Source: an uncultured Roseobacter sp.
Lineage (GTDB): Bacteria > Pseudomonadota > Alphaproteobacteria > Rhodobacterales > Rhodobacteraceae
DNA length: 64,000 bases
Assembly: GCF_947496515.1 (NCBI RefSeq)
Contig: NZ_CANMDB010000008.1
Span: 62,001-126,000 of the forward strand
Reading direction: 5' to 3'
Shown here: positions 16,460 to 58,690 of the stretch, piece after piece
How positions within the stretch are numbered: the first letter of the stretch is position 1
How the letters are laid out: the number at the start of each line of letters is the position of its first letter
Translations under genes and position numbers: made by a program
Notes under the pieces: model-generated
The model's database searches: none
What the model saw: only the letters and a program-made list of their open reading frames with translations
What the model was told of the DNA's origin: nothing

Positions 16460-16502
16460 CGATTGACCCGGGGCGAGACCGACAATATTGACGCCCGACA
16501 CC

Positions 16503-16550
16503 TGCCACAACGGCTTCCTGACGTGGCGGGCGAGACCCTAACGGAGCGAC
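16503..16550 (+). promoter_or_regulatory. SAM/SAH riboswitch in the metK leader
   Basis: Stem arms GCCAC (16504-16508) and GTGGC (16523-16527) enclose the conserved core ACAACGGCTTCCTGACGT, and the downstream AACGGAGCG (16541-16548) carries the Shine-Dalgarno GGAG that can pair with the GCTTCC of the loop as a pseudoknot. This matches the SAM/SAH riboswitch class known from Rhodobacterales metK leaders. Ligand binding would hide the ribosome-binding site of metK (ATG at 16553), giving translational feedback. The match is from memory of the consensus. Confidence 0.88.
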
Positions 16551-27940: not shown

Positions 27941-28903
27941 ATGCGTGCCATGCAAGTCACAGAGCTGGGCCAGCCCCTGCAAATGAGCGACATCCCGACA
28001 CCGGATCCAGGGGCAGGGCAGGTGCAGGTCAAGGTGCATACCTGCGGTCTGAACTTCGGGGATTTGCTTGCAATCAAAGGGACTTACCAGGAGCGGCCCG
28101 AGGTGCCCTTCACGCTCGGGATGGAGCTTTGTGGGACGGTGACGGCGGTGGGCGCGGGGGTCGAGACACTGCAGGCAGGCCAGCGGGTGGCAGCTTATTG
28201 CGGGTTCAACGCGCTGGCGGAGCACGCAGCGATTGACGCCAATATCTGCGTGCCGATCCCCGACGCCATGAGTGATGAGGATGCCGCGGCCTTCCTGATT
28301 GCCTATGGCACCAGCCATGTGGCGCTGGACTACAAGGCGCATCTGAAACCGGGCGAGCGGCTCTTGGTGTTGGGGGCGTCGGGGGGCATCGGGCTCACGG
28401 CGGTGGAACTGGGCAAGCTGATGGGGGCCGAGGTGATCGCGGTGGCCCGGGGCGCAGAAAAGCTCGCGGTGGCAAAGCAGGCCGGGGCGGATCATGTCAT
28501 CGATTCTGATGCGGATGATTTGCGCAGCGTTGTCAAAGGCTTGGGCGGTGCCGATGTGGTCTATGACCCGATTGGCGGCGATCTCTTCAAGGCGGCGATG
28601 CGGGCCTGCAACCCCGAGGCGCGGCTGATCCCCCTGGGCTTTGCCAGTGGGGAGGTGCCGCAGATCCCGGCCAATCATCTGCTGGTCAAGAACCTGACCG
28701 TCATCGGGTTTTACTGGGGCGGATACACCCGGGTGAAGCCGAGCGTTCTGACGGACAGTTTTCGGGTTCTGACGGAGTGGTATGTGGACGGGCGGATCAA
28801 GCCGCATGTGAGCCACGTGCTGCCCTTGGAAGAGGCGAACGAGGGGCTCGACTTGCTCAGGACGCGGCAGGCGACGGGCAAGGTGGTGATCCGGATCGCT
28901 TAA
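27941..28903 (+). CDS. Zinc-free medium-chain NADPH:quinone oxidoreductase family protein
   Basis: A 320-residue MDR enzyme. An N-terminal GroES-like domain (VHTCGLNFGDLLAIKGTYQ) is followed by a Rossmann domain with GASGGIGLTAVELGK near residue 145 and the cofactor-binding VIAVARGAEKL. The structural zinc Cys cluster is absent, as in quinone oxidoreductases and related crotonase-like reductases. The ATG at 27941 gives the usual start. Substrate cannot be read from sequence. It stands alone before a structured intergenic region. Confidence 0.88.
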   Translation: MRAMQVTELGQPLQMSDIPTPDPGAGQVQVKVHTCGLNFGDLLAIKGTYQERPEVPFTLGMELCGTVTAVGAGVETLQAGQRVAAYCGFNALAEHAAIDANICVPIPDAMSDEDAAAFLIAYGTSHVALDYKAHLKPGERLLVLGASGGIGLTAVELGKLMGAEVIAVARGAEKLAVAKQAGADHVIDSDADDLRSVVKGLGGADVVYDPIGGDLFKAAMRACNPEARLIPLGFASGEVPQIPANHLLVKNLTVIGFYWGGYTRVKPSVLTDSFRVLTEWYVDGRIKPHVSHVLPLEEANEGLDLLRTRQATGKVVIRIA

Positions 28904-28922
28904 CGCGCCGCGCGCGCAACAC

Positions 28923-28940
28923 GCACGCCGCGCGGCGTGC
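28923..28940. repeat. 18-bp perfect palindrome
   Basis: GCACGCCGC directly followed by its complement GCGGCGTGC, 20 bases after the quinone oxidoreductase stop. It may be a transcript-end hairpin; no T-run follows. Confidence 0.7.
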
Positions 28941-28990
28941 GCATCCGCTCAAAACCCACGTTGATGCCGTGATTTCAGGGCATTGGCCAC

Positions 28991-29034
28991 GTCGGTATCG
29001 TGTCGGTATCACGTCGGTATTCTGTCGGTGCGCC
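28991..29034. repeat. 11-bp tandem repeat, four units (locus 1)
   Basis: Units are GTCGGTATCGT, GTCGGTATCAC, GTCGGTATTCT and GTCGGTGCGCC, in exact 11-base register. The first six bases are constant. A looser copy (GACGGTATC) follows at about 29036. The same motif, period and terminal GTCGGTGCG unit occur at 58636-58690. Confidence 0.9.
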
Positions 29035-29080
29035 TGACGGTATCGGGGCGTTTAACAGACCGCGCGCCGCGCTCTGTTAC

Positions 29081-29116
29081 GGGGCGGTGAACCCGGCGCG
29101 CGCCGGGTTGCGCCCC
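29081..29116. repeat. Long GC-rich cruciform
   Basis: Outer arms GGGGCG (29081-29086) and CGCCCC (29111-29116) enclose a perfect 20-bp palindrome at 29090-29109 (AACCCGGCGC then GCGCCGGGTT). It would fold into a strong RNA hairpin about 110 bases before the ABC ATPase start. Confidence 0.75.
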
Positions 29117-29226
29117 GCGGGCACCGCCGCACAGACTGCGCCGTTGTCTGTGCGCGGCTGCGCTGTTATTGGATGTCTCTGCGCCTTAGTGTGCAGCTGA
29201 GAAGAGAACCGGAGCGGATACCATCA

Positions 29227-30165
29227 ATGCAGCCAATTCTTCAGATCAAGGGTCTGCGCAAGGCCTATGCGGACGGGTTCGAGGCGCTCAAGGGCGTGGA
29301 TCTGGAGATCGCGCAAGGCGAGATCATCGCGTTACTGGGGCCCAATGGCGCGGGCAAGACCACGCTGATCTCGACCGTGTGCGGGATTACCATGGCGACC
29401 TCGGGCAGTGTCACGGTGGGCGGGCACGACATCATCAGCGATTTCCGCGCGGCGCGCAGCATGATCGGCCTCGTCCCGCAGGAGATCAACCTGGAACCCT
29501 TTGAGCGGGTCAAGAACACGGTCAAATTCTCCCGCGGGCTGTTTGGCAAACCGCAGGACGATGCGGTGATCGAGCGGATCCTGCGGCAGCTGTCGCTGTG
29601 GGACAAGCGCGACAACCAGATCCGCGAGCTGTCGGGCGGGATGAAGCGGCGGGTCCTGATCGCCAAGGCGCTGAGCCACGATCCGCGGCTGCTGTTTCTG
29701 GATGAGCCAACGGCGGGCGTGGATGTGGAGCTGCGCCGCGACATGTGGGAGATCGTCGAGGGGCTGAAGGCCGATGGCGTGACCATCGTGCTGACAACCC
29801 ATTACATCGAGGAGGCCGAGGCCATCGCCGACCGCATCGGCGTGATCGCCAAGGGCGAGTTGCTGTTGGTCGAGGAGAAGGAGCGGCTGATGGCGCGCAT
29901 GGGGCAAAAACAGCTCGACGTGCAGCTGACGGAACGACTGGAAGCGGTGCCGCAGGCGCTGTCGGGCTATGATCTGGTGCTGTGCGAGGATGGCTGCACC
30001 CTGCGCTATTCCTACGACACGCGGGGCGAGCGTACGGGCATCACCAAGCTCTTGCGGGACGTGTCCGAGGCCGGGCTGGTGCTGCGCGACGTGGCCACAC
30101 GGCAGAGCAGTCTGGAGGACATCTTTGTCGGGCTGGTGCACGAAGAACCGGGAGATGCGGCATGA
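29227..30165 (+). CDS. ABC exporter ATP-binding subunit (ABC-2 type)
   Basis: A 312-residue ATPase of the CcmA/NodI-like drug-exporter branch. Walker A is GPNGAGKT near residue 40, the signature is ELSGGMKRR near 138, and Walker [13 protein letters not shown] is near 160; an extra C-terminal domain of about 90 residues follows. It would power the ABC-2 permease encoded next, with which it overlaps by four bases (ATGA). The substrate is unknown. The ATG at 29227 is chosen as the first one that gives a family-like N-terminus. Confidence 0.92.
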
Positions 30166-58635: not shown

Positions 58636-58690
58636 GTCGGTACTCTATCGGTATCATGTCGGTATCGCGTCGGTATCACGTCGGTGCGGG
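58636..58690. repeat. 11-bp tandem repeat, five units (locus 2)
   Basis: Units GTCGGTACTCT, ATCGGTATCAT, GTCGGTATCGC, GTCGGTATCAC and GTCGGTGCGGG in exact 11-base register, 37 bases upstream of the lpd start codon. The motif, the period and the closing GTCGGTGCG unit are the same as in the array at 28991-29034. Confidence 0.9.

Follow-up and report, generated by a model that had tools for sequence, protein, structure and literature searches.

The 11-bp tandem repeat at locus 1 is best explained as one copy of a dispersed class of protein-binding arrays, in which the addresses are shared among related genomes and the recognised word changes by lineage (probability of about 0.6). The window, i.e., the whole stretch of 64,000 nucleotides that was analyzed, comes from genome G000 and holds two such arrays, locus 1 and locus 2 (Table 1).

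Table 1. Features of the two arrays and of the surroundings of locus 1 (positions in the window).
Feature	Position	Strand	Basis or remark
Upstream gene, quinone oxidoreductase/zinc alcohol dehydrogenase family	27941..28903	+	ADH_zinc_N, ADH_N
Left frame motif, TTAACGCGCCGCGCGCGCAACAC	28900..28922	+	overlaps the oxidoreductase stop codon; family consensus approximately GTTAACGCNGCGNNCGCGCAACGG
Spacer between left motif and array	28949..28990	+	short A run and short T run
Locus 1 array, four 11-bp units, GTCGGTATCGT GTCGGTATCAC GTCGGTATTCT GTCGGTGCGCC	28991..29034	+	sequence, period scan
Right frame motif, GTTTAACAGACCGCGCG	29050..29066	+	compare GGTTAACAGACCGCGCG after the GTGCAC array in the radA gap of a congener
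Downstream gene, ABC transporter ATPase	29227..30165	+	ABC_tran; start codon predicted
Locus 2 array, five units, GTCGGTACTCT ATCGGTATCAT GTCGGTATCGC GTCGGTATCAC GTCGGTGCGGG	58636..58690	+	pattern and period scan

The units of locus 1 are contiguous in 11-bp register, and GTCGGT is identical in 4/4 units. A preliminary description had given four units in exact 11-base register at 28991-29034, with a first half GTCGGT that does not vary, and both points were confirmed on the sequence of this locus. The unit named there, GTCGGTATCNN, was right as to the array and a little too strict as a spelling, since unit 3 reads GTCGGTATTCT. The units share GTCGGTAT, after which 3 bases vary, and the array closes with GTCGGTGC. 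The array had also been placed in a gap after a quinone oxidoreductase and before an ABC exporter, and the domains found in the two neighbors agree with this; the genes were predicted with a hexamer score of our own, by which start codons may be wrong. The left frame motif gave one match with 3 mismatches, versus 0.03 expected in shuffles. The bare right-frame pattern occurs about as often as by chance in the window (8 matches versus 7.44 expected) and is marked by its position only. A and T runs like those of the spacer are common in other copies, 41-60 bp before the last unit.

Tandem periods of 7-16 were scanned over the window, with a cluster threshold of at least 21/27 identities, and clusters were found at period 11 only, at locus 1 and locus 2. 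A two-unit pattern with up to 2 mismatches matched 6 times in the window, all within these two arrays, where 0.10 matches were expected from dinucleotide shuffles. Locus 2 lies between lpdA (on its start side) and a MAPEG gene, an address at which G009 and G007 carry GTGCAC arrays. It carries no frame motifs, and a GC-rich stretch follows directly after the array.

An RNA element of a known family at locus 1 was rejected: the Rfam search of 28850-29260 gave no match above the gathering score, and the best match below it, AS1890 (28929-29036, 21 bits versus 39, E 0.18), overlaps the array only at this sub-threshold level. A promoter-like site was looked for at locus 1 and none was found; one terminator-like site was found, at 29150-29163, where 0.4 were expected. 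Elsewhere in the window, a SAM/SAH riboswitch aptamer scored above its gathering score at 16499-16548.

The dispersal of the arrays was measured with a three-unit pattern, TCGGT-N5-GTCGGT-N5-GTCGGT with one mismatch, and the reversed pattern was used as the control. G000 gave 56 forward and 51 reverse strand-wise matches and none for the reversed control; one array yields several matches, so the array total is estimated at roughly fifty. Matches were found in 35/295 genomes of the family, nearly all of different genera. At least 9 matches were present in 16 of these 35 genomes (the richest, G323, with 132+162), and the other matching genomes gave 1-4, near the background, as 20 genomes had one reversed-control match. 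A further scan, of one genome per species, returned at least 114 stretches, and the matches listed include Roseovarius, Boseongicola, Pseudooceanicola, Shimia, Silicimonas, Salinihabitans and other Rhodobacteraceae, as well as two records labelled Alphaproteobacteria only. Contigs of the cultured marine isolates Pseudooceanicola atlanticus, Roseovarius pacificus, Boseongicola aestuarii and Shimia haliotis are among these matches. Thus, the search of this genome and its relatives that the preliminary description had proposed revealed dozens of dispersed loci, also in other genera, and the absence from relatives that it named as fatal to its reading was not observed. Among 72,556 plasmid records no credible match was found, at a sensitivity that is low for so short a query; the consensus query gave one archaeal record at E up to 10. 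A phage origin was rejected, because of the six stretches from viral collections two have host-like flanks and anatomy and the other four, without the closing unit, look like chance matches (judged by eye). The array on one viral contig (L262) lies beside a gene that resembles what we take, from its sequence, to be a gene-transfer-agent portal protein. These six viral loci were left out of the context, unique-array and AT-free counts below, and kept in the address grouping and the third-position skew.

The unit number of the arrays is narrow. Among 44 arrays collected with a pattern demanding neither AT nor the GC ending, 9, 24 and 11 had 3, 4 and 5 units, respectively, the minimum of 3 being set by the search pattern. 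The closing unit was GTCGGTGC in 31 of these 44; in the larger set the last full unit was GTCGGTGC in 154/169 unique arrays, a fraction that is inflated because about two thirds of them came through a pattern demanding AT and that ending. Unit number and register were equal in 5/5 printed ortholog pairs of G010 and G012. The comparison of unit number between strains had been proposed as a check, with slippage-like copy-number differences at no conserved site counting against a binding array; across the genomes sampled, one per species, the number was 3-5 almost throughout. Positions around the arrays were counted from the first base of the last unit. Within 250 bp of it, the words GTTAA/TTAAC are almost confined to two positions, about -65 and +25, and two weaker ones, -120 and +60; GAATC-type words sit near -80, and A or T runs between -60 and -41. 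Such a GTTAAC-type frame surrounds many arrays, and many others lack it. In G011, the array and flanking sequence of locus L230 are nearly identical to those of locus L234, so that a composite element may recently have been copied as a whole.

Constraint inside the units was estimated from ortholog pairs. Positions 1-6, the core, are uninformative on conservation, as all search patterns require them. When the pairs were limited to the 11 obtained without the AT demand, differences were seen at positions 7 and 8 in 5/22 inner units each, at position 9 in 13/22, at position 10 in 7/22 and at position 11 in 0/22, and at 334/880 bases of the flanks. The AT at positions 7-8 thus appears mildly better kept than the flanks, which gives only mild support for constraint inside the units. 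An earlier pair set, drawn from a hand-picked 23/40 address groups, showed a stronger contrast (9-13% versus 47-57%), which is partly ascertainment because several patterns demand AT.

The arrays occupy the same gene neighborhoods in different genomes. By similarity of the flanking proteins, 113/237 array records fell into 40 groups, two of which only join shifted records from a single locus. Here, as in the other array counts, loci that overlap on one array had been merged by sequence, imperfectly so in this grouping. The same addresses recur across genera, including livG (9 loci), cimA (6), lpdA (5), chorismate mutase (5) and more, with domain identity checked for representative neighbor genes. 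At livG the array follows the stop codon, and its nine loci include Pseudooceanicola and a Sulfitobacter MAG. Arrays stand before cimA, before chorismate mutase and before lpdA, the last being the address of locus 2 and of an array in Shimia haliotis, and an in-frame array lies within a loop of valyl-tRNA synthetase (valS). In address pairs the orientation was the same in 137 and flipped in 5. Where the address is that of chorismate mutase, lpdA or cimA, the third-last unit in most cases starts 35-58 bp before a start codon, and 94-96 bp before it in two loci. The address of locus 1 itself is sporadic: the array was present in 2/19 genomes of the genus (G000 and G011), within the 330 bases after the oxidoreductase, as judged by eye. 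The valS of G000 (L020, C6) has a long Ser/Pro/Ala-rich insertion besides the in-frame array; the insertion is short in the G011 and G012 orthologs.

Arrays of other units were found at these shared addresses. G253 and G187 were positive for the reversed control and carry dispersed 11-bp arrays of units close to GGCTGCTATGT and ATGGCTGGCGT, respectively. The valS loop, read by eye in 33 genomes, holds units of GTGCACNNNNN in G009, a congener without GTCGGT matches, and TTATGRAAGAG in G019; two genomes had no readable loop and most others show no array there. Within the genus, GTGCAC arrays, with the unit GTGCACNNNNN, are many in G009, G005 and G007 and few in G016, G004, G001 and G011, and the reversed control for GTGCAC had no match in any of the 19 genus genomes. 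G007, with mostly GTGCAC arrays, has a GTCGGT array at livG, a possible transitional state. Of the GTGCAC arrays listed, 32 were read, and for 21 of these the gap is orthologous to one with a GTCGGT array, on the same side, compared with 17/402 control gaps from G010 and G012 (Fisher p 8e-18, with orthologs that are not independent). These 21 arrays represent about a dozen addresses.

The frame was compared between the two dialects. Around the 32 GTGCAC arrays, the peaks of the GTTAA/TTAAC words lie at distances much like those seen for GTCGGT arrays; GTTAAC-type words are sharply positioned around both types alike and rare elsewhere nearby. In the radA gap, G011 (GTCGGT) and G009 (GTGCAC) both have GGGTTAACGC before the array and TAAACAG or TTAACAG, then CGCGCG, after it. 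Between-dialect alignments of the frame clearly beat the reversed orientation in 2/5 cases (L219/L454 at radA, and L096/L438). As far as these alignments go, the frame tends to survive a change of dialect.

The chorismate-mutase gap was followed most widely. A period-11 array was called there (p ≤0.005 in 200 simple shuffles) in 18/39 loci, namely 9/30 newly fetched and 9/9 chosen as known. These were read as 7-8 unit types: GTCGGT (decayed in G018), GTGCAC, GTACACACCCC (G029), ATGGCTGGCGT (G187), GGCTGCTCTGT (G253), GCATATGNTTT (G031), AGTTCTTYCRT (G019) and GTMGGGTTCGC (G028). No array was found in this gap in the other 21/39 loci, including those of the array-rich G303, G323, G252 and G284; in several array-free loci the gap itself seems to be missing, with the acetyltransferase gene reaching as far as chorismate mutase. 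Over 400 kb of G031, two further CATATG arrays were found and none for eight control palindromes.

The GTCGGT arrays follow the strand composition of the chromosome. With the flanking GC skew computed without the array and 200 bp on each side, the skew was positive on the array strand in 205/231 unique arrays (162/182 in the first count). The GC3 skew on the array strand was +0.128 for same-strand genes (n=280) and +0.187 for opposite-strand genes (n=389); since it is positive for both alike, the polarity does not come from the genes. Skew was also sampled in twenty 20-kb windows on the chromosome contig of G010 and as many on that of G012; two replichores were seen, and the arrays agreed with their replichore, by eye, in 10/11 and 10/10 cases, respectively, two of the G010 arrays lying near sign changes. 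Six array regions were sampled in G310, of which five agree by raw skew; the sixth has a raw skew of +0.003 and a negative third-position skew, which agrees. The 3.6-Mb chromosome of G310, a single contig (L263-L282), changes the sign of its GC skew often, as if it had many inverted segments, and its arrays seem to follow the local sign. The G-rich strand bears 702/1216 genes in the sampled regions, and rRNA was found in 2/5 genomes, with one rRNA gene of G336 on the same strand as the nearest arrays. From these gene counts, the G336 rRNA gene and general knowledge, the G-rich strand is probably the leading strand. In the other dialects, the printed arrays with positive skew were 6/6 in G187 and 8/13 in G253, counts that cover the part of their arrays passing a crude filter, and the GTGCAC core is palindromic and hence without polarity.

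Gene context was determined for 209 arrays with both flanks predicted, of which 23 lie inside predicted ORFs and 186 outside. The latter comprise 76 in tandem gaps antisense to the genes, 45 in tandem gaps in sense, 42 in convergent and 23 in divergent gaps. The head-on orientation is thus in excess in tandem gaps (76 versus 45), though genes lie on the G-rich strand in 218/365 sampled tandem gaps, and a position-neutral site would not explain this excess. The orientation-neutral context suggested by a set of 148 arrays was abandoned, because the larger set shows the head-on excess. A sense-strand RNA element was rejected as well, since arrays occur on either strand relative to the genes. The p values for polarity and context are too small, given the dependence among orthologous loci.

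These results are consistent with an array that is bound by protein. Each unit, a 6-bp core plus 5 bp, spans 11 bp or about one helical turn. One DNA-binding domain per unit would then lie on a common face of the helix, and 3-5 head-to-tail subunits may bind an array cooperatively. A head-to-tail oligomer of a DNA-binding protein is suggested by the constant geometry with a changing word, the single helix face and the narrow unit number. That one address bears different words within a genus speaks for a change or an exchange of protein specificity; the addresses would be long kept while the recognised word changes by lineage, and the simplest account is a binding protein that shifts its specificity and is followed by its sites. 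All dialects may go back to a single protein that changed fast or was replaced again and again. Protein binding, head-to-tail oligomerisation and a single protein for all dialects are what we infer from sequence. A helically phased protein-binding array had already been thought plausible in the preliminary description, and the dispersal, the 3-5 units, the shared addresses and the polarity now lend that proposal support. A chromosome- or replication-linked role seems somewhat more likely than an ordinary promoter operator, because the arrays follow the replication-associated strand and occur in tandem, convergent and divergent gaps alike. The arrays at chorismate mutase, lpdA and cimA, mostly within about 60 bp of the start codon, could act on transcription, and both roles could hold.

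An operator function for the whole class was considered in this light. The sites might belong to a global transcription factor, e.g., an OmpR/PhoB-type response regulator, whose specificity drifted and whose regulon sites followed. The 11-bp register fits such a factor, the part of the PhoP study compared here describing direct repeats of 7-bp motifs with a 4-bp spacer (PMC4832192); the named addresses adjoin core metabolic genes, and the short distance of the third-last unit to the start codon at three of them would suit an operator. However, the polarity tracks the replication-associated strand and not the gene, 42/186 arrays lie in convergent gaps without a facing start codon and 23/209 inside predicted genes, and in tandem gaps the distance to the facing start codon (median 87 bp) is widely spread. 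Operators of this kind are thus unlikely to explain the class. By analogy with DNA uptake sequences (DUS), the arrays might also mark DNA for sequence-specific uptake or gene transfer, with a changing receptor driving the dialects. This would fit the dialects changing at shared positions in core-genome gaps, the choice of permissive sites including the ValRS loop, and the lack of a credible plasmid match in a search of low sensitivity. Some tens of arrays per genome are, however, far below the number of DUS, and so strong a strand polarity is not expected of an uptake mark, which makes this explanation quite improbable.

IS200/IS605-type elements transpose as single strands and insert with the replication fork. 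Relics of a mobile element of such a habit, the array being part of a 150-200 bp composite with GTTAAC words, would account for the replication-strand polarity, the composite frame around many arrays with the near-identical pair in G011, and the patchy abundance among genomes. Unshared, sporadic insertion sites are expected of REP and IS200/IS605 families. Locus 1 itself is sporadic, but the class is not: the same addresses are filled in different genera and by different units, where independent insertion predicts otherwise, and many arrays have no frame. The relic reading was already disfavoured on these grounds and carries very little weight. A neutral minisatellite grown by slippage was the plain alternative of the preliminary description, and slippage can indeed produce tandem repeats. 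Dozens of dispersed copies, a unit number that is narrow and not freely variable, conserved sites at shared addresses and the polarity led us to reject it for the class, and we give it almost no credence.

Returning to the protein-bound array class, a wider reading may be offered as a tentative one, less likely true than false: a family-wide addressing system, with tens of kept addresses, phased arrays and a word often rewritten, apparently as a whole set, whose arrays serve as chromosome-scale landmarks and whose change is driven by conflict. The landmarks might be domain boundaries, or places where a replication- or segregation-linked complex is loaded or stopped. Behind the fast change of the word there might be conflict, e.g., with phages or other mobile DNA able to exploit the code or imitate it; such a system would keep its addresses and, in at least one dialect, the replication-strand polarity. 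Large sets of binding sites usually freeze the word of their protein; in these arrays the address seems to persist and the word to change, even between congeners. The arrays would therefore offer a natural series for studying the joint change of a DNA-binding protein and its dozens of sites. Their polarity and constant geometry also suggest that they serve the chromosome as a whole, in a group that is common among marine bacteria.

In a literature search that covered mostly open-access journals, no description of such arrays was found, and known systems were compared. KOPS/AIMS-type words orient the chromosome; KOPS, read by FtsK, are single octamers, numerous and polar on the leading strand. 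The GTCGGT-dialect arrays may resemble them in polarity, with 205/231 on the G-rich, probably leading, strand, and the printed arrays of positive skew are 6/6 in G187 and 8/13 in G253; the arrays are few, and the GTGCAC core is palindromic. OmpR/PhoB-type sites usually consist of two half-sites at promoters. Like the present arrays, they are direct repeats one helical turn apart, of about 11 bp; they are bound cooperatively, as the present arrays may be. The present arrays have 3-5 units, lie also in convergent gaps and gene interiors, and differ in their units within a genus. DUS number hundreds to thousands of copies per genome, whereas the pattern gave 107 strand-wise matches in G000 and 132+162 in G323, with several matches per array. 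DUS dialects are known from the Neisseriaceae (Frye et al., 2013, PMC3630211). In the sections of that paper compared here, DUS are likewise a short genome-wide word at permissive core-genome sites, with a spelling that differs between related species, just as GTCGGT and GTGCAC types occur in one genus and further types elsewhere. Unlike DUS, which are short words and often inverted pairs at terminators, the present arrays are fewer, tandem and helically phased.

Direct repeats of the heptamer TAACTGA have been described in Beggiatoaceae, Cyanobacteria and Bacteroidetes (MacGregor, 2015, PMC4679880). The sections compared report 169 direct sets and one inverted set in one genome, with two to six copies, mostly forward and just before start codons in the main genome; eight sets between stop codons of one cyanobacterium have the same chromosomal orientation, a point posed there as a question. 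Both kinds are dispersed sets of short direct repeats, mostly intergenic with some inside genes, with a putative binding protein and a patchy taxonomy. The heptamer keeps one 7-bp unit across phyla, in contrast to the 11-bp, lineage-specific units at shared addresses with replication-strand polarity found here, which occur in tandem, convergent and divergent gaps and not mostly forward before start codons. Swapped units at shared addresses are not described in PMC4679880, PMC3630211 or PMC4832192, as far as the compared sections of these papers go. Among the published kinds found, and within those sections, the TAACTGA heptamers are thus the nearest dispersed short arrays, and the DUS dialects are the nearest case of a genome-wide word that has been respelled.
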